DNA from: Hypomesus transpacificus
Lineage: Eukaryota; Chordata; Actinopteri; Osmeriformes; Osmeridae
NCBI RefSeq assembly: GCF_021917145.1
Contig: NC_061062.1
Coordinates: 6,043,847-6,107,846 of the forward strand
Length of the DNA: 64,000 bases
Reading direction: 5' to 3'
In this document: piece by piece, positions 6,137 to 46,968 of the stretch
How the letters are laid out: every line of letters begins with the position of its first letter
How positions within the stretch are numbered: position 1 is the first letter of the stretch
The notes under the pieces: generated by a model
Database searches by the model: none
What the model was told of the DNA's origin: nothing
Seen by the model: only the letters and a program-made list of their open reading frames with translations
Translations under genes and position numbers: made by a program

Positions 6137-9100
6137 TATACCTGTGTGTCGCAGTGTGAGCGTTTAAAGAAGATCCACGCTGAGCTTGAGGAGAAGCTGG
6201 AGGCCTCGGAGATCCAGATCAAGCAGCAGTCTGCAGAGTACAGAAGCCTTCTGCAGCAGAGAGATGTACATTTACATTTATTCATTCAGCAGACGCTTTT
6301 ATCCAAAGCGACTTCCAAAAGAGAGCTTTACAAAAGTGCTTAGGTCAATGATCATAACAACGAGCCCCAAACATTGCGGGCAGCCAAAACATGACGCATA
6401 CATTGTGAAAAACCAAATAAGTGCCAAAGGGAAGAACCATAAGAGCATGTAGTTAAACAAGTTGCAATTAAACAACATGAACCTGAAAAAGTGCAAGAGT
6501 GTACCCGTAGGAAAGCAATCAACAGTAAAATATTTCACAGCGAGTACAATAATTGAGATTGAATTGAGATGAATTGAGATGAATTGAGATGAATTGAGAT
6601 GAATTGAGATGTAAGCAGGCGTGAGCCCCTCCCACAGCCACGCTCCCACACCACCAGGGGGGGTCCTGAAGCGTGCCGTCTGCTTGCCTTCGCAGGTGGA
6701 GATCAGCCACCTGAAAGCGCGCCAGAGCGGCCTGCAGGAGGAGATGCACAAGTGGCAGAGTTCCAGCCAGTCCGCCTCCTCCGGCCCCGCCGTGCTCCCC
6801 GTGGCCACCTCCACCACGTCCTCCTCCGCCTCCTTCCTGCCACAACCCCCCGGGGACCACCAGGGTTTCCACGGGGACCAGATGGACTTCAGCGACGTGC
6901 TCTGGTCCCAGCAGGAGATCAACCGCCTCTCCACGGAGGTGCTGCGGCTGGAGGCCGAGGTGGCCCACTGGAGGCGCGTGTCTCAGGTAGCCAGCCTCAC
7001 TGTGTTTATCCCTGCATTCCATAACATGGGAAACATGACTGCATTCCATAACATGGGAAACATGACTGCATTCCCTAACAGGAGAAACATGACTGCATTC
7101 CATAACATGGAAAACATGACTGCATTCCCTAACAGGAGAAACATGACTGCATTCCATAACATGGAAAACATGACTGCATTCCATAACATGAGAAACATGA
7201 CTGCATTCCATAACATGAGAAACATGACTGCATTCCATAACATGAGAAACATGACTGCATTCCATAACATGCATTACTCCCAACATAACACAACATGCAT
7301 TACTCCCAACATAACACAACATGCATTACTCCCTAAATAACATATTGTTTGATACTTTACTCCCTACATAACGTATAACGTACACGACTGATGTTTATAT
7401 CCCTACATAGCAAAACAGAACATTACTGAATGTAGATCTGTACATAACAGAAACTGACAGTGCATGACATCTATGAGTGATGTACCTGTTGTACCGTGCT
7501 CCGTACCAGGCATCAAATGCCCCAGGGAACGGCAACGGTGACCAGGGTGAGATCCTCAAGCTCCAGAGGATCATAAACGTGAGTTTCACTTTAAAAGCCA
7601 CCAGTCCAACTGTATGAACTGGTTATTCAAAAGGATTAATGTGTTGTTACTTTATCATAGTAATAGAACAACAGTTCTTTGTTTCCCACAGATTAGAAAG
7701 CGATTTATGGGGGGTCGCCTGTGGCTGAAGGGGGGAGGGGGGGGGGGGCCTGCCAGAAACCAAAGACTAAAAATGAGTTCTCGGCCGGTGTCGATTCTGT
7801 AGCGCACCGCCACAAATGATTCTATGTGTGGGGAAACACTGAACAGATGTTCACGGATGTCGGTTTCATTCTGGAAACGTACTGTGCGTTGTTTATGTAC
7901 TTGAACTTGTGAGCCTCAGCCGCTGTCTGTCTGTCTGTGTGGAGCAGGAGCTGCGAGAGGAGATGGGCAGAGAGGTGGACGAGCACCAGCACGAGCTGGC
8001 CGCCCTGCAGGACGCCCAGCGGCAGAAGCTGACCGAGGTGACGCGGCGCCACCGGGCCGAGCTGGCGGAGTACGAGGAGAGGGTGGAGGAGCTGGAGGAG
8101 CAGATCCACAATGGTGGGACGGGGTCAAGTTCCCTAACGAGTTAGTCGGGGGCTCTTCAGGGTTAAACGGTTGGAGAGGGAAAACAACAAGGAATTATTT
8201 CATAGAGGCTGTAACTTTCTGACGGGTATATGCTCGAGGGGATAAGGAGCTGTAGTTCTTGTGTTGTTTCATGCTTTCAAGCTCAGTGGTAGAGCATTTG
8301 TCTGCAGATCAAGAGTTTGCAGGTTCAAGTCCCGACCTGTATGTCGCTTTGGATAAAAGCATCTGCAAAATAATCGGCATTATTAATAATTGCCTCTAGT
8401 AATGTTTTTGGTCATTTTTCCCCCCTAATCCAGCGGGCAGCGGCCAGACCTCCCTGGACTCCTCCAGAACCCTGGACCTTCAGAACACCGTCCGGTCTCT
8501 ACAGGAAGGGGCGGAGCAACAGGACAGGAAGCTGCAGGAGCTGACTGCCAGTCTGGAGGAGGCGCAGAGGGCCGCAGCCGTCCTGCAGCAGGAGAAGGAG
8601 GAGGTGCAGGGAGAGAACGCACAGCTGCTGCAGAACTACGCCCGGCTGCAAGCGTCGGTGGTGGAGCTCCAGACCCGGGTGCAGGAGCAGGAGGGGAAGA
8701 ACCTACACAAGGCCCATCTGGATAACGAGATACAGGGGCTGAGGAAGGCTCTGGCAGGTAGAGTTACAGGCAGATAGAGGTACAGCCAGGTAGAGGTACA
8801 GGCAGGTAGAGCTACAGACAGGTAGAGCTACAGGCAGGTAGAGCTACGGGCAGGTAGAGCTACAGGCAGGTAGAGGTACAGGCAGGTAGAGGTACAGGCA
8901 GGTAGAGCTACAGGCAGGTAGAGGTACAGGCAGGTAGAGCTACAGGCAGGTAGAGGTACAGGCAGGTAGGGCTACAGGCAGGTAGAGGTACAGGCAGATA
9001 GAGGTACAGGCAGATAGAGGTACAGGCAGGTAGAGCTACAGGCAAGTAGAGCTACAGGCAGATAGAGGTACAGGCAGTTAGGTAGAGGTACAGGCAGTTA

Positions 9101-12100
9101 GGTAGAGGTACAGGCAGTTCGGTAGAGGTACAGGCAGTTAGGTAGAGGTACAGGCAGGTAGAGTCTGATCAGGTATAGAGTTTGAATGCTGAGCCAGGAG
9201 CTTAACATTTCTGTTGTGAATGTTTTAATGTATTTCATGTTTATATGTATCTTTTTTTCTTCAGATGCTGAAAAAGATATCATGAGGCTTAAGAGTCCTC
9301 CTGAGGTATGGAGTCTGACTGGACACTGAATGTTCCCAGTTTATCTTTATGCTCGGCTGATTCTTCTTCTTTTTAAATTCATTTGGCAGATGGCTTTATC
9401 CAAACTGACATCAGTTTGATAGTTGTTGATTTTGTTGTTTATAAAAGAGTGAACCAGCAGCAGAGGTGGAACATGCAGAAATCCTAGAACTGAACACACT
9501 CATCGGGGCCTTGAGACAAGAGAAGGAGATGATCGAACAGGAAAAGGTCACCTAAAACTCTCCTCAACTGCGTTGATGAATTGTGTGACTTGTGTGCCCT
9601 GTTGACTCAATGAGTAAAAGCACCTTGTCTTTACTTGTAGTGTTCAAGCGTAAAACGAAACATTGTGAAACACATTTTCCTTGTTACTTAACCACAGGGT
9701 CAATGTTTTCCTGCTTTTCAGCTGGGCCTGCTGGAGAGGCTTAGGGGTGCGGAGGAGCGGGGTGGGGCAGGAGGGGAAGGGGAGGACAGCGAGGGGCTGA
9801 GGGCGGAGCTCCAGAGGATGGAGGAGGCTCTGAAGGAGACCCGGGAGGACCGGGACACGCTCATGTCTGAGCTGGAGGAGCTGGACCGCCAGAACCAGGA
9901 AGCCACACAGGTACCCGCTCTGTTGATCAGCGTCAATAAGTAATGGAACATTAGTCACTTCTGAATATGTTACATCCATGTCAATTTTAGTACAGTAAGG
10001 AAAAGAGGTAAATGTACACATACTTACTTTCTAAATATGTAGTATATATGCAATATATGATTACATTTATGTCATTTCAGCAGAGTTAAAAAAAAAACGT
10101 TTTCTGACAATTTATATCCTTTATATTATAATTACTATTTTGTGTGTTTTTTTTCCCTCGTTTGTGTGCAGCACATGATCTCCGTGAGGGAGCAGCTCTC
10201 TGGGCAGCTGAAGGAGTCTGAAGCCGAGTTGACCAGGCTGCTGTCTGAGCTCAGTTCAGCCTCTGACCAGAGGGGGGCGCTGCAGCAAGAGCTGGAGGCC
10301 CAGAGGGAGAAACTGAGCCAGAGCGCCTTCACGCTGAATGACCTGCACATGGGCAAGCAGCAGCTGGAGAGCACAGTGAAGGAGCTGAGAGAGAAGCTGG
10401 GACACGCTACGGAGCAGGGGCGCGAGGCGCGAGGAGAGGTGTCGGAGCTCAGGAGAAGCCTACAGGAGCGGGAGGAGCAGCTGTTTGCTGCCAGGGCGGA
10501 GCTCCGTCAGGCGGGGGAGAGAGGGGCCGAGGGCGGGGGAGAGGAGCTCGCCGCGAAGGAGCGCGAGTCGGAGGAGCTCCGGAAGGAGCTGGCCGAGATG
10601 AGGAACTCCCACGAGAAAGTGATGTCAGAGGACTACGAGGGCAAGATGGAGAACAGGAGGTTGAAGACGGAGGTCGAGGAGGCCGCGGGCAGGGCGGAGG
10701 AGCTGGGCCGGCAGGTGAGGGAAGGCCAGGCGGCCCTCAGCAGGTTGGCCCTGGAGAAGGACACTCGCATCGAGGCCCTGAAGCTGGAGAAGAGCCAGCT
10801 GGAGGGCGAGCTGAGCCAGGCGGAGCTGGCGCTGGCCGAACAGACCAGGCAGTACCAGAACACCGTGGAGGAGCTGACACGGGCGCGCTCCCTGGACGCC
10901 ACCGCCTTGCAGACGGAGCACGAGAGGGCCGTGCGGCTGAACCAGGAGAAGGACCTGGAGATCGGCCAGCTCCGGAGGGACGTGGAGCAGGGGGCATCCG
11001 ACCACAGGGACACCAACGAGATGCTGGCCATGACCGTGGCCGGGCAGAAGCAGCTGACGGACCTGCTCCGGGAGAAGGACGCCCTCATGGAGACCCTGAA
11101 GCAGGGTGCGGCCGAGGCCCGGAGCGAGGCGGAGGGACGGCTTCTGGCGGCCTCCAAGGACGTCGAGGCGCTGAGGCAGGCGGCGGAAGAGAAGGACAGG
11201 CAGCTGGGAGGGATGAAGGAGGAGAACAGCCACCTGAAGGAGGAGTTCGACCGCCTGAGGGACCAACAGAGCCGGCCCCAGCCCCTGGCCGAGCCGCGGA
11301 CCCTGGACATCATCACCGAGCTCGAGACGGAGATCACCCAGCTCAAGTCCGCCAGGAGCAACCTGGAGGAGGAGGTCCTGGCCCTGAGGAGGGCCACGGA
11401 GGAGGAGCGGGCCTCGCTGCTCGCCGCCCAGCAGTCCCTCCAGGCGCAGCAGAACGAGCTGGAGCAGGCTCACTCGCGCCACGAGCAGAGCACGCTCAAC
11501 TACGACCGGCTCATCCACGCCAAGGACCAGGAGATCTCCCGCCTGCTGCAGGCGGTGGAGGGGCTCGCCGGGCGCCACAACCATCCCCCGTCCGTACCGG
11601 AAGTGGTCATCATGCAGGAGGACAAGACCCAGTCTCTCAACGGGGAGAACGGCAACGAGAAGCACGACCTGTCCAAGGGAGAGATCGAGAGGCTGGTGAA
11701 GGGCATCAAGGAGAAGGAGACCGAGATCACCCAGCTGAACGAGAAGAACCTATCCCTGGCCAAGCAGCTGGACCAGCTGGTGGTGTCGCGGGACGAGCTG
11801 GGCAAGCTGTCCCAGATGATCACGCAGAAGGACCGCGAGATCCAGGCCCTGCACGCCCGCATGTCCGGCGGCCCCTCCCAGGACGTGATGTTCCTCCACC
11901 AGCAGCTGCAGGCCTACGCGGTGGAGAGGGAGCAGGTCCTGGCCGTGCTCAACGAGAAGACCCGGGAGAACAGTCAGCTGCGCTCCGACTACCACCGCAT
12001 CATGGACATCGTGGCGGGCAAGGAGGCGGCGCTGCTGAAGATGCAGCAGGAGAACCAGCGCCTCTCCACCATGAGCGACCCGTCCGGCAGCCAGGAGATG

Positions 12101-15100
12101 TTCCGCGAGACCATCCAGAACCTGTCGCGCATCATCCGGGAGAAGGACATCGAGATCGACGCCCTGACCCAGAAGTGCCAGACCCTGGTGAGCGTCCTCC
12201 AGGCCTCGGGGGGCGAGGCCGGCACTGGCTCGGGGGGCGTGAGCAGCAACCAGTTCGAGGAGCTCCTGCACGAGAGGGACACGCTCAAGCAGCAGGTGAA
12301 GAAGATGGAGGAGTGGAAGCAGCAGGTGATCACCACGGTGAAGAACATGCAGCACGAGTCGGCCCAGCTGCAGGAGGAGCTGCTCAAGCTGCAGGGCCAG
12401 GTGTCCGCCGACAGCGACTGCAGCTCCAAGCTCTCCGTCGACTACTCCCGCCTCGTCCAGAGCTACGAGCAGAAGGAGAGGAAGCTGGGGAGCCTGAGCC
12501 AGGAGCTGGCCCAGGTCCAGCAGACCATCAGCCAGCTCAGCACCACCAAGGCCGTCCTGCTGGGGAAGCTGGACTGCGTGTCGCCGGAGCCGCCCCTCGC
12601 CGACCAGTCCCCCGGGCCTTCCCCGGCGGCCGAGCAGGGGGCGGCGGCCGCGTTCGGCGAGACCCAGCAGCGCGAGCTGCAGTCGCTGCGGGCTCTGCTG
12701 GCCGAGAGGGAGTCGATGGTCAGGACGCTGCAGGAGAACAACCACCGCCTGTCGGACTCGGCGTCGGCGTCGGAGGGCGAGCAGCGGGGCCAGGCAGAGG
12801 AGGCGAGGCAGGCGAGGGAGCGCCTGGAGGCCCTGCAGCGGTCCGTCCGGGAGAAGGACCTGCTCATCAAGTCCAAGGGGGACCACCTGAGCCAGGTGAG
12901 CGAGGCGCTGAGGAACCGCGAGAGTGACAACGAGGTGCTGAAGCAGGCGGTCACCAACCTGAAGGAGCGCGCGCTGATCCTGGAGATGGACGGCCGGAAG
13001 CTGAAGGAGGAGAACGAGGCGGTGGCGGCGCGTTCGCGCGAGAAGGAGTCCGAGTTCCGGGCGCTGCAGGAGACCAACATGCAGGTGTCGCTCATGCTGA
13101 GGGAGAAGGAGTTTGAGCGCTCCGCCATGAGTGAGAAGACCGCTGCCATGGAGAAAATGCTGAAGGACAGAGATCAGGTCAGCGCTGCTCTGGAAGTAGC
13201 TTGAATGTTTTTTTTTCTCAAATTGTTTTCCCCGAATGTATAAGTATGTATGTATTCACTCTTAAAATGAATACATTACGTACATGATACGTACATCACA
13301 TTTGTATAAACGTTCGCCTTTGTAGTGGCTAATGGTCCCTGGTTTTCATGGTAGCCACTGAAATACTGCTCGAACTGTATACTTCTGGTCCCAGATGATC
13401 TTGTGCCCTTCCTATGTGCACTATTCCTACTACTCCCCACTATCTTATGACTCCTTTACTACCTGCACTGGTCCTCCGTCCCCCTGGCTGGACATGCCTG
13501 CTGAGTGTGTGATGTGACTGTCTCTCCCAGGGGAAGAGTGTGGAGCTGAACCAGCTGCTGAATGAGCTGCGCTCCATGCAGGAGCGGGCCGTGGCCTTCC
13601 AGCAGGAGAGAGACCAGCTGATGCTGGCGCTGAAGCAGAAACAGATGGAGACCACGGCGGTGCAGGCCGAGGTAGGGCCGGCGTAGTCGTCGCGCCTTAG
13701 ACTCCTTTGGACTATTATTTGCGCTTGACTATTTCTAGTCCTTTGGACTATTATTTGTTTATTGGTTGTTTTTAATTTGATATGTTTGATGCGGAGGGCA
13801 GATAACTGTAAATAAATCAAATTTTCTGACCTTTTTATAAATAATCAGCATTGCAGTGTCACACTTGTTCACATAAGTAACCTTCCTGTCCCTCACCCCC
13901 CCCCACACACACACACACACCACACACACACACACACCACCCACACACACACCACACTCACACACACCACACACACACACACACCACACACACACCACCC
14001 ACACACACAACACACCACCCACACACACCACTCACACCACACCACACACACACACCACCCACACACACACCACACTTACACACACAACACACCACCCACG
14101 CACACACACCACACATACACGCCACTCACACACACACAACACGCCACCCATATCCACACACAAACCACCCACACACACAGTTGCAGCGCATGAAGGACAA
14201 GGAGCAGCGTCTGAACCTGGAGCTGGAGCGTCTGCGGAGCCACCTGCTGGAGACGGAGGACTCGTACACGCGCGAGGCGTTGGCGGCCGAGGACCGCGAG
14301 GCAGAGCTGCGCCGGAGGGTGACCATGCTGGACGACAGGCTGGCCACCTCGTCCAGCGCCGTGGAGAACGCCAGGTACCTCCTGGTGCTCTGAGTCTCCT
14401 GTCTGTTCTGTACCTGGTGGTGGTTAGTCTGTGGACAATGTGGTGGGGGTTTTGGGTTGCGGTTTCTGCTGTGATACACCACTCTTTTTAATGCTACTAA
14501 AATGTGTAGAGATTCAAATCTCCTTAAAAAAAAAAAAAATTAAAAAAAACGTTTTCGTACCTTTTTTCCTAAGCAACTTACAAATGCATGTCATGATGTC
14601 TGACCTGTAACTGAACTTCTATCTATACAGTCAATCAATTAAACCTCCCCCTCTCCCTCCTCCCCCCCCCCCCCCCCCCCTCCTCCTCCCCCCCTCCCCC
14701 AGCCAGCAGGCCAGCCTGCAGGTGGAGTCCCTGCAGGAGCAGCTGAGTGGGGTGGTGAAGCAGAGAGACAAGGCCCTGCTCCAGCTCCACGCCTCCCAGG
14801 AGCAGGTCAACCAGTACGCAGTCTCCCTCTCCAACCTGCAGATGGTGCTAGAGCAGTTCCAGCAAGGCACGTTCACACCCCTCGCAGACACACCAGAACA
14901 AACGGCCACATGTATACTTTACACCGGTGTGCACCGTTAGCATGTAGCTTTGAATAAAGGTGTCTGCCGAACGAATGCAAGCAGAACACAAGCCCAATGT
15001 GTTTAACTTCCACGTGGTACGCCCAGCCCCATCCTCTACCACTGAGCTATACCCATCCCCACACCTGCACCGCGCACGGCTCCAGTGGAGGACCTTCATA

Positions 15101-42454: not shown

Positions 42455-45400
42455 ATGGACACGGACCAAAACAGCTCTGTTCTCAAAGAGGGGTTTCTGG
42501 TTAAGAGGGTGACTATTTGTTTGATTTGTATTAATTCATGTTTATTTTGGATAACATATCAAAATGTAGGTACTTGTCCGTCAATAATGGGCTTATGTGT
42601 GTGAACGTCTTTGTTCTTCAGGGACATGTTGTTCACAATTGGAAGGCTCGGTGGTTTGTCTTGATGCCAGATAAGTTGCTTTATTACAAGTACGAGGGGG
42701 GAAAAAGGGAATCGTGTCAACGGGGGAGGATAATGCTGAAAGAGTGTGTAGTTACCTGTCCGTTTCTGGAGTACGACTATCGGCCGGTGAGTAAAGAAAA
42801 CGTTATTATTATCTCATGGAAATCTAGCCTACTATAGGCTACTTAATACAGCCTACGACTTTGTTGACTAAAGCAAATAGTACAGGGATGAACATTGTAG
42901 AAATTTGATCTTTCTAAGCTTTGTAAGCTATCAATGTTCTTTTGTGATTGAAGTCTCTTTGAGAACGGGATATGTTTTACCTGGTTTACATTTCGGCTTG
43001 TGGTCCAAGGTCTGAAGGAATGTTTATGCTGATGCTTGACACTGGTGATACTGTTGTGTTTAGGCCAGTCTGGGCTTGACAGTGTAAGTAGGATGTCAAG
43101 TTTTCTGACTATCACAGCTCTGCTTAAAGTGTGATGAATTATGACACTCAGGGTGTGTCAGGGATTTTCTACTCCAATCATAACACCTAGTTTGTTAGTG
43201 ATTGAACATATTGGCCAGTTTTGAATTCAGTTGGTTACTCAAGCATTGATTATTTTGCCTGAGGCAAATGTATAAGTCATTTGGTGTCCCCTTGTTGCAA
43301 TATTTGGACATTCATCTGAATCCCCTCCCCAAACATCCACACCCTCCCTCAACACTAACCCTCGCCTCCTTCAAAACGACCCACCCACCCATCCACCTGT
43401 CCAATCTTAACCCAGTGTTCCTTTGATGTAGCTGGTGATCAGGCTGCAGACACAGAGCTGTGGGGAGCACTTCCTGGAGGCGTGTTCTCGTGAGGAACGA
43501 GATGAGTGGGCTGCTGGCATCACCGCTGCCATGGCGTCGCTCCACTACAGTGACGCTACGCCAGACAACCAATCAGAAGCAGCTGCACCCAAGTCCTTGG
43601 GGCTGCACAACATCAACCTAAGGTAAAATTGATTGGAGAACCGAGTTAACACAAGCTGTTGTGGTGTTGACTGCAAGATTGGGATGTTGAGGATAGGGTT
43701 GTAATGTTGTTCTGACGTTGTGTACATTGTTGTGACGTTGTTCTAACGTTGTGTACATGGCCGTGATGTTGTTCAGAGGTAGTGTACATTGTCGTGACAT
43801 TGACCGCAGCTGTTGTGTGTGGACACAGCCAGGTGTTGGACTCCATGTATGACATTCACAGCGGCATCAGGATGAGCAACCTGACAGAGCAGGGCAGCAC
43901 CTACAGTAACTGCTTCTCAGGTTGGTCTGACCTCTGTTTCCTAATCACCTACAGTAACTGCTTCTCAGGTTGGTCTGACCTCTGTTTCCTAATCACCTAC
44001 AGTAACTGCTTCGCAGGTTGGTCTGACCTCTGTTTCCTAATCACCTACAGTAACTGCTTCTCAGGTTGGTCTGACCTCTGTTTCCTAATCACCTACAGTA
44101 ACTGCTTCTCAGGTTGGTCTGACCTCTGTTTCCTAATCACCTACAGTAACTGCTTCTCAGGTTGGTCTGACCTCTGTTTCCTAATCACCTACAGTAACTG
44201 CTTCTCAGGTTGGTCTGACCTCTGTCTCCTAAACATCTACAGTAACTGCTTCTCAGGTTGGTCTGACCTCTGTTTCCTAATCACCTACAGTAACTGCTTC
44301 TCAGGTTGGTCTGACCTCTGTCTCCTAAACATCTACAGTAACTGCTTCTCAGGTTGGTCTGACCTCTGTCTCCTAAACATCTACAGTAACAGCTTCGCAG
44401 GTTGGTCTGACCTCTGTCTCCTAAACATCTACAGTAACTGCTTCTCAGGTTGGTCTGACCTCTGTCTCCTAAACATCTACTCTGCTCAGTTTCCCTCTCA
44501 AAAACGCACTTGAGATGAACGGACATGGGTGTCAAAGTTCCACAACTGATTTGAATAACTTAATGAACACACTTGCAGGCAAAAATGGGGATGGTGTAGC
44601 TAGTATGTAGTGTACAGTGTGAATGGTTTAGTTCAACAGTGCAAACCTACAGGTGGGCATCTCTCCAGGAGCAGGGTTGGACAGCTCTATTATACAGTAG
44701 TTTTTTGTGTTGGGCATGAAGACAGGTGTAGGCTGCGGCACTCTGGTGGCATCATTGACCCTGAGGCCTGTGCTGCTGCTCCCTTTCTGGGCAGGCTCGT
44801 CGGTGGTGGACTGGTTGGTGTTCATGCAGCTGGTCCTGACCCGTGTGGAGGCCGCCACCCTGGCCTCGGCCCTGCTGGAGGAGGGCTTCCTCCGGCCGCT
44901 GGGCTTCCGCAGCGTGGAGGCGCTGCGCAGCGCGGGTCTCAGCCAGCAGTTCCTGGACGACTCTACGGCTCTCTATGGCTTTGTGAGTGTACTGGCTACC
45001 TTGGAACGTGTTCATTTTATTTTTCTTATTTCGAGCAACGCATCTTCTCTCGAAATTAAATCGGAAACACCATTTTTATGAAATGACCCTGCAATTACAT
45101 TATATTACCCTGAAGCTTGATACTACGTTGATTCCATGTGACTCCAGTCTGACAGCTTCAAGAAGAGAGGGAGTGTGAAACCTGAGAAGACACTGTCAGC
45201 CGTCGAGCTGGCTGGGAAAGTGGTCAAGAGGGGCTTCCTACTCAAACAGGTAAACAGGCCCAACCCAGGCCTCTCCTTACTGTAGCAAGGAAGAAGAGCA
45301 TTAGGGTTTGAGGTTGCAAAATGTTTTAAACTCAACTCTCTTTATCTACACCACAGGGTCACAAAAGAAAGAACTGGAAGGTGCGTCTCTTTGTTCTTCG

Positions 45401-46097
45401 ATCACAGCCTGGCTACCTGCACTACTATGACCCCAGCAAAGTATGTACATGGTTGCTCCAACATACCAAGCACCTCTGGAATCTCTCTCTTGTGCAATTT
45501 TCCCCTGGGGATTTAAAAAGTATTACTCGACTCGATTCTATTCTACTCTCCCTCATTCTTACTCAGTTTCTGTGGCCAGACGTGTTGTTTGTGCTGTGTC
45601 TCATCCACTTCCTGTCTGGTATCACCTGTCAGGATGACATCAACCCTGCGGGCGGCTTCTCCCTGCGCGGCTGCCTGGTGTCGGCCCTGGATGACAACGG
45701 AGTACCCTCAGGTGAGTCACCTGCAGGTGTGGGAGCTGATAACAACTACTGATTACTCAGGTTGAGCGCTGACTCAGACAGAACACTCGTATTGGAGCTC
45801 ACTGACATTTTCGGTGAATTTTCTTGTCTTCTCTGAGGGTTAAGTTATTGGTGTTGATCTGTGGGGAACTATGAGGCTCTTTAGGACATTGCTTGTTATC
45901 AAAATGGGCAGGACTAATGCTATACTATCGTTTGATTTGGTTTGACTGAGTCTGTGTTTCCTCTAACAGGCGTGAAGGGAAATGTTCAGGGCAACCTGTT
46001 TAAAATCATCACTCAGTCCAACGAACACTATTTCATCCAGGCTCCCACACGCCAGGAGAAGATAGACTGGGTCGAGGCGGTGCGAGGACACAGTTAG
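42455..46097 (+). CDS. plek2: Pleckstrin-2
   Basis: Coding exons: 42455-42508, 42622-42786, 43432-43622, 43829-43920, 44795-44982, 45148-45249, 45357-45440, 45633-45711 and 45970-46097 (stop TAG), giving 360 aa against 353 in human. Exons 1-3 encode the first PH domain (VLKEGFLVKRGHVVHNWKAR, FLEACSREERDEWAAGI). Exons 4-5 encode the DEP domain (SSVVDWL, LASALLEEGFLRPLG, QQFLDDSTALYGF). Exons 6-9 encode the second PH domain (GHKRKNWKVRLFVLR, GYLHYYDPSK, GGFSLRGCLVSALDDNGVP, GNVQGNLFKI). Family role: binds PI3K phosphoinositide products and promotes membrane ruffling and actin rearrangement; in mammals it is prominent in erythroid cells. The start is fixed by MDTDQNSSVLKEGF, equivalent to the human N-terminus. 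The intron after 43920 holds a minisatellite made of the exon end itself. Confidence 0.96.
43921..44480 (+). repeat. 48-bp minisatellite duplicating the plek2 exon 4 end and splice donor
   Basis: Eleven full 48-bp units plus a partial twelfth. Each unit begins GTTGGTCTGACCTCTG, passes through CCTAATCACC or CCTAAACATC, and ends ACAGTAACTGCTTCTCAG, identical to the last bases of exon 4. Donor-like CAG|GTTGGT therefore recurs at 43921 and every 48 bp to 44449. The period is 16 codons and no stop occurs in the exon 4 frame. Confidence 0.97.
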
Positions 46098-46339: not shown

Positions 46340-46549
46340 ATACTGTTGCAAATTGAAGTATCATTTTGTCTCATGTCTCTGTCTGAATGTTTTAAAACGG
46401 TGCTTTGTGACAGTAAGTCAGTGTAGTGTTTTTCCTCTGAGTAAAACCAACCAGTGCAGACCAGTGGTGCCCGAGGTGCTGTGTGAGTCATCACATCTGC
46501 TCAGGTGCCGACATGCAGCTCTCCAGGTGGAGAGCAGTCCCAGCGGGCT

Positions 46550-46968
46550 GGTGCCTGCCTCTGCTCCTGCATCCCCATGACTGGTGCCTGCCTCTGCCTC
46601 TGCATCCCCATGACTGGTGCCTGCCTCTGCCTCTGCATCCCCATGACTGGTGCCTGCCTCTGCCTCTGCATCCCCATGACTGGTGCCTGCCTCTGCCTCT
46701 GCTCCTGCATCCCCATGACTGGTGCCTGCCTCTGCTCCTGCATCCCCATGACTGGTGCCTGCCTCTGCCTCTGCATCCCCATGACTGGTGCCTGCCTCTG
46801 CCTCTGCTCCTGCATCCCCATGACTGGTGCCTGCCTCTGCTCCTGCATCCCCATGACTGGTGCCTGCCTCTGCCTCTGCATCCCCATGACTGGTGCCTGC
46901 CTCTGCCTCTGCATCCCCATGACTGGTGCCTGCCTCTGCCTCTGCATCCCCATGACTGGTGCCTGGTG
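46550..46968 (+). repeat. 33/39-bp minisatellite between plek2 and the galectin-related gene
   Basis: About 13 copies of ATGACTGGTGCCTGCCTCTG plus CCTCTGCATCCCC, with some units changed by CTGCTCCTGC inserts. All unit lengths are multiples of three, so both strands carry long false frames. It lies in the tail-to-tail interval, just beyond the minus-strand gene's poly(A) site. Confidence 0.95.

Follow-up and report, generated by a model that had tools for sequence, protein, structure and literature searches.

A 48-bp minisatellite on the exon 4/intron 4 boundary of a predicted plek2 gene carries twelve in-frame splice donors, of which the first is expected to be mainly used

By analogy, the closest design to the array described here appears to be the 31-bp VNTR of human CBS, which lies at exon 13/intron 13 (PMC1395315, PMC5188458), is written c.1444_1467+7 and occurs in 16-21 copies with single-base variants (PMC2630376). 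According to a review, activity is lower with more units (PMC5188458). If the notation is taken to mean the final 24 bases of the exon and 7 of the intron, each CBS unit would carry the donor, as the plek2 units do. However, retained CBS units would shift the frame, 31 not being divisible by three, whereas the 48-bp period of plek2 keeps it, and the added plek2 units each hold an acceptor-like stretch as well. The original report of the CBS VNTR (Lievers 2001) is said to have described alternative splicing. A second relative is the 25-bp VNTR in intron 18 of human ABCA7, whose first two bases are the exon 18 donor and whose smallest allele has ~12 units (PMC5954066). There, splicing from the donor of the second unit leaves one 25-bp unit in the mRNA, with a shift of frame, in 2 +/- 1%, independent of VNTR length, a figure for which the order of two values follows a "respectively" in the paper, and skipping of the exon after the VNTR increases with VNTR length (PMC5954066). 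A donor at the repeat start and a further donor in the next unit are the likeness to the plek2 array; by contrast, the ABCA7 repeat starts at GT without exon bases, its 25 bp shift the frame, and it comes with RNA and population data.

Human CBS also provides, in 844_845ins68, a tandem duplicated intron/exon junction comparable with that of plek2; the extra CBS copy is spliced out, leaving normal mRNA (PMC2630376). Furthermore, tandem duplications of AGGT segments (the Rogers model, the 24-nt repeats of fission yeast, ATP2A1) create removable introns (PMC4974935, PMC3629103), the proto-site being AGGC in the original yeast paper. Reminiscent of these, copies with AG/GT can supply both donor and acceptor, so that whole units can be silently spliced out, but there the new intron arises inside an exon, whereas the plek2 array sits on an existing boundary, where a new intron is unneeded. 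Juxtaposed acceptors and donors also recall the ratchet points of recursive splicing, although those described in the abstracts listed lie in long introns, whereas plek2 intron 4 has 874 nt and holds a putative motif of this kind. The titles listed for exon/intron-boundary arrays in the open-licence literature included neither a plek2 nor a fish example, although this does not prove that none exists.

The window, that is, the whole 64-kb stretch of DNA analysed (49.3% G+C, no N), holds on its + strand a complete predicted plek2 coding region, apparently of a fish, with nine exons, 360 residues and a single terminal stop. For the exon 1/2 junction six variants were tried, two of which stay open, and the model uses an exon 2 start at 42622. 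The product contains PF00169 (two PH stretches) and PF00610 (DEP), above the Pfam cut-offs. In the PDB it is matched best by two chains of pleckstrin 2, 1x1g and 1v3f, the latter a solved DEP domain, presumably from mouse. Given the PH-DEP-PH order and the best match to pleckstrin 2, the predicted gene appears to be PLEK2. Spliced from the first donor of the array (k=0), its product aligns with 1v3f gap-free across the exon 4/5 junction (query 135-242, E 2.1e-32). The nine-exon model, Pfam domains and PDB matches thus bear out the gene, junction and frame of the original prediction. The features referred to below are as follows, a slash marking a splice boundary.

42455-42508, 42622-42786, 43432-43622, + strand: plek2 exons 1-3 (nine-exon model)
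43829..43920, + strand: plek2 exon 4, 92 nt, entered in phase 2 and left in phase 1 (nine-exon model; gap-free 1v3f alignment)
43898..44480, + strand: 48-bp x 12.1 tandem array across the exon 4/intron 4 boundary (TRF; base-by-base unit listing; core search)
43914..43926, + strand: TTCTCAG/GTTGGT, AG/GT junction found in every unit (TTCGCAG in two; unit listing)
43918..43926, + strand: most likely ancestral donor CAG/GTTGGT, first intron base 43921 (unit listing, scores)
43931..43954, + strand: first of 11 acceptor-like stretches, pyrimidine-rich, ending CTACAG/ (approximate matrix)
44474..44480, + strand: 3'-terminal CATCTAC of the array, a near-repeat of the 5'-terminal CACCTAC (43898-43904); likely slippage endpoints
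44795..44982, + strand: plek2 exon 5, starting within the G codon of GSSVVDWL (DEP; model, Pfam, PDB alignment)
45148-45249, 45357-45440, 45633-45711, 45970-46097, + strand: plek2 exons 6-9 (nine-exon model)

Over the whole window, TRF reports the array at 43898-44480 (+) with a period of 48 bp, 12.1 copies, 97% matches and 0% indels. Each unit consists of the last 23 bases of plek2 exon 4 (CACCTACAGTAACTGCTTCTCAG in unit 1, where they are the exon's own end) and the donor CAG/GTTGGT, which opens 25 intron bases (GTTGGTCTGACCTCTGTTTCCTAAT) copying the start of intron 4. The array is more than chance: a search with a 34-base core, three mismatches being allowed, gave 12 matches with 0 to 2 mismatches versus 0 in 100 shuffles, and the + strand of the window contains CAGGTTGGT 12 times, always inside the array. 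A 29-base piece of the core had no exact match in genome_contigs or viral_contigs, which by description hold prokaryotes and viruses, so that this says little. Five of the 48 unit columns vary and 43 are invariant, the mean pairwise difference between units is 4.2%, and five of units 1-6 are identical to one another. Such head-to-tail units of high identity, 48 bp within a range of roughly 10-100 bp, have the structure of a minisatellite. The copying of the exon 4 end and its donor about 12 times in a long and highly uniform array had been predicted correctly, as had the array end at 44480; the predicted start, 43829, is instead the first base of exon 4, the array beginning at 43898. Absent from the original prediction were the acceptor-like stretch of each added unit, the near-repeats CACCTAC and CATCTAC at the two array ends, and the frequency with which repeated 48-mers stay open by chance.

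Several other repeats and frames occur in the window. A 31-bp x 3.1 array (43706-43802) lies in intron 3 just before exon 4, which consequently has repeats on both sides, and a 33-bp x 12.3 array (46548-46965), open in five of six frames, lies ~450 bp past the plek2 stop. Elsewhere, within 6696-7271, an exon that we presume to be TRIP11-like, naming it from a nearby coiled-coil ORF, ends at the donor CTCAG/GTAGCC (6987), and a 27-bp x 9.6 array starts 25 bases further on; this array is open in the frame of the preceding exon, and its consensus unit lacks GT. At 10061-13204 (+) there is a 1047-aa open frame of coiled-coil type, presumably resembling TRIP11/GMAP-210.

With regard to the origin of the array, the first copy may have been produced by slippage between two sequences, or their precursors, 48 bp apart, CACCTAC in exon 4 and CATCTAC in intron 4, and multi-unit exchanges may then have expanded it, carrying the exon 4 donor along in each unit. 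The 3' units keep the CATC junction found in the 3' flank, whereas those at the 5' end have CACC and hardly differ from one another. From unit 6 to unit 8 the two types alternate, and units 2 and 10 have a T-to-G variant in common, which suggests an exchange of blocks. The near-identical 5' units and the grouped junction types are consistent with local expansion, although the grouping of the two types along the array is matched by 7.6% of shuffles and is weak on its own. That the expansion was recent, as had been proposed from the uniformity of the array, is a fair inference.

All 12 units carry the identical donor CAG/GTTGGT, just as the twelve potential donors had been predicted: for donor k (k=0-11), listed base by base, the last exon base is 43920+48k and the first intron base, a G, 43921+48k. 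The boundary repeat thus starts 23 bases before the exon end and has a donor in every unit, 11 identical copies following 43921 every 48 bp up to the last GT at 44449. These donors are weak by matrix and middling by U1 energy: on an approximate matrix they score 2.04, second lowest of the eight plek2 donors (the other seven range from 1.14 to 8.51), and 4.6% of the + strand GTs in the window score at least as high, while their U1 pairing energy of -7.5 is the fourth best of the eight. Since the k=0 product is gap-free to the pleckstrin 2 DEP across the junction, 43921 is most likely the ancestral donor.

Which of the twelve would be chosen can be approached through human data. Where near-equal donors are combined with a short upstream and a long downstream intron, the upstream donor is favoured, and in minigenes with two identical strong donors the upstream one is used exclusively, while with two identical weak donors it is preferred in smaller exons and larger exons are skipped (PMC9225289). 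Before strength was equalised, however, most events favoured the downstream donor, whichever of the four intron classes they belonged to (PMC9225289). These minigenes, which do not come from fish, contain two donors between flanking introns of 365 nt each, whereas plek2 has 12 donors and a short upstream intron. With 206 nt for intron 3 and 874 nt for intron 4, plek2 exon 4 falls into the short-long class favouring the upstream donor. Counting against such a preference, the identical sequence of all 12 donors leaves the downstream ones without a handicap of sequence. On balance, we expect mainly donor k=0 to be in use.

Two further candidates were set aside. A donor-like CAG/GTGGGC at 44653 in intron 4 scores 4.67 with a U1 energy of -10.3, both better than the array donors, but lies beyond an in-frame stop (44511-44513), so that its use would give an early stop. 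RNA structure hiding donors found no support either, since 20 of 20 shuffles of exon 4 plus the array were at least as stable as the actual transcript (z +1.99).

Splicing from donor k would lengthen exon 4 by 16k codons. As had been claimed, each of the 12 resulting products rejoins GSSVVDWL and stays open; the normal stop is the only one in each. This behaviour, that of an open protein tandem repeat, is nevertheless weak evidence of coding, because tandem repetition leaves a given frame open for 53.3% of the 48-mers sampled from the window, and one or more of the three frames for 85.8% (20,000 draws; the ~1% touching the array were skipped yet kept in the denominator, so that the true values are slightly higher). 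Minisatellites are also abundant in this window by TRF: 18 arrays, hand-picked from 84 TRF rows with simple-sequence and many short low-copy rows left out, and including the 48-bp array itself and two neighbours that overlap by 6 bases, total 4133 bases or 6.5% of the window. Random placement would match ~0.5 of the eight plek2 donors, and we therefore dropped the position of the array as a surprise in itself.

At the protein level, the residues just ahead of GSSVVDWL would stay nearly unchanged whatever k, since the units end in TYSNCFS or the near variants IYSNCFS, IYSNSFA and TYSNCFA. The junction codon encodes residue 168, about 19 residues into the DEP domain that Pfam places at 149-230 of the k=0 product; the proposed insertion at the very start of the DEP domain was therefore nearly right. 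Three of the 12 products were scanned for DEP, giving 55.5 bits (k=0), 60.4 (k=1) and 64.2 (k=11), and replacing exon 4 by a 14-nt exon gives a product with 45.4. In-frame retention need not do harm, as the frame is kept in all 12 products and the DEP score is not lower for k=1 and 11. In these two, profile positions before 10-11 are left out of the DEP match, and the original upstream DEP segment is thus displaced. All five variable columns, which are few, change the residue (S/A, C/S, F/L, I/N, T/I). A leucine-rich-repeat character of the k=11 product was considered and taken as chance, the Pfam match being below threshold (20 bits, cut-off 27).

The same units contain acceptor-like sites, whose first exon bases lie at 43955+48j (j=0-10), 14 nt ahead of the next donor, with CTGAC just upstream of each stretch as a possible branch site. 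On an approximate matrix they score 3.78 (7 copies) or 2.16 (4 copies), compared with -2.39 for the annotated acceptor of exon 4, which has a poor pyrimidine tract, and 4.67 for that of exon 5. Formally, the AG/GT junction could also be regarded as a juxtaposed acceptor and donor; as an acceptor it scores 2.35 in 11 of the 12 units and below the limit of 1 in unit 10. From each donor to the next acceptor-like site there are 34 nt, presumably too short for a vertebrate intron, and a donor/acceptor pairing would thus have to skip a unit. Exon 4 was followed in five arrangements by such extra exons, either a single one (14, 62 or 110 nt) or a series of two or three 14-nt exons, and all five ran into an early stop, as did exon 4 skipping and intron 4 retention, while a 14-nt exon replacing exon 4 kept the frame. 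A sequence able to extend the protein could therefore also spoil the message.

We consider it likely that the array is a recent slippage minisatellite on the exon-intron boundary, with its upstream donor mostly used and with rare retention or mis-splicing; most likely, there is nothing unusual about it as a minisatellite, human genes offering examples of the same kind, and it is presumably neutral. The spliceosome would mainly use 43921, and the rest of the array would leave with intron 4. Some transcripts, a minor fraction, may retain one unit or a few, each adding 16 residues in frame; as an alternative minor fate, mis-splicing through the acceptor-like stretches may lead to nonsense-mediated decay. 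Between the two readings offered by the original prediction, the evidence favours the minisatellite whose period keeps it open, because about half of the 48-mers are open and minisatellites abound in the window, and the splice-selectable protein repeat finds no specific support. For the latter, donors k=1-11 would have to be meaningfully used, placing 16k residues (GWSDLCFLITYSNCFS) before GSSVVDWL and yielding a length-variable PLEK2. We regard this as unlikely: although twelve identical donors, open products throughout, unit ends that largely rebuild the residues before GSSVVDWL and undiminished DEP scores all speak for it, such openness is common by chance, the variable columns, few as they are, give no sign of amino-acid constraint, and the k=0 junction is already gap-free, with the upstream DEP segment displaced for k=1 and 11. 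Moreover, exon 4 would exceed 250 nt from k=4 on, whereas the human data prefer smaller exons, and when identical donors compete under exon definition, the upstream one has the advantage (PMC9225289). The acceptor-like signals, with their early stops in every arrangement tested after exon 4, argue against it as well.

Those same signals lead to the idea of a splicing burden, in which acceptor-like stretches pair with exon 4 or upstream donors, or neighbouring exons are skipped, and functional mRNA is reduced according to array length. Its appeal lies in 11 acceptor-like sites that outscore the exon 4 acceptor, in the early stops from exon 4 skipping, intron 4 retention and added exons, and in the findings on ABCA7, where next-exon skipping rose strongly with VNTR length (PMC5954066), and on CBS, where more 31-bp units went with lower activity (PMC5188458). 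Yet the matrix behind the acceptor scores is approximate, one outcome, with exon 4 replaced by a 14-nt exon, keeps the frame, and the folding of the array gives no support, so that we hold such a burden to be improbable. An assembly artefact with a wrong or inflated copy number we judge extremely unlikely; highly uniform arrays are generally hard to assemble, but simple stutter would not produce ordered variants at five columns. More daring, and in our estimate very unlikely, would be to view the array, with its 12 donors and 11 acceptors, as head-to-tail splice modules, each made up of an acceptor, a 14-nt exon, a donor and a spacer of 34 nt, whose period and phase match the frame and would thereby offer in-frame PLEK2 isoforms, tunable by allele length, that rebuild the DEP entry motif and from which whole units could be removed at AG/GT without trace.

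Returning to the preferred reading of a minisatellite with a dominant first donor, the plek2 array is a natural experiment in splice-site choice, as it sets twelve identical donors in competition at a fixed spacing of 48 nt, all in frame. Each choice of donor could show as a distinct protein-coding mRNA, in contrast to the CBS and ABCA7 arrays, which shift the frame and expose their products to decay. If only the first donor is used, the array would illustrate the cross-exon proximity rule cleanly, while being in all other respects an ordinary minisatellite.
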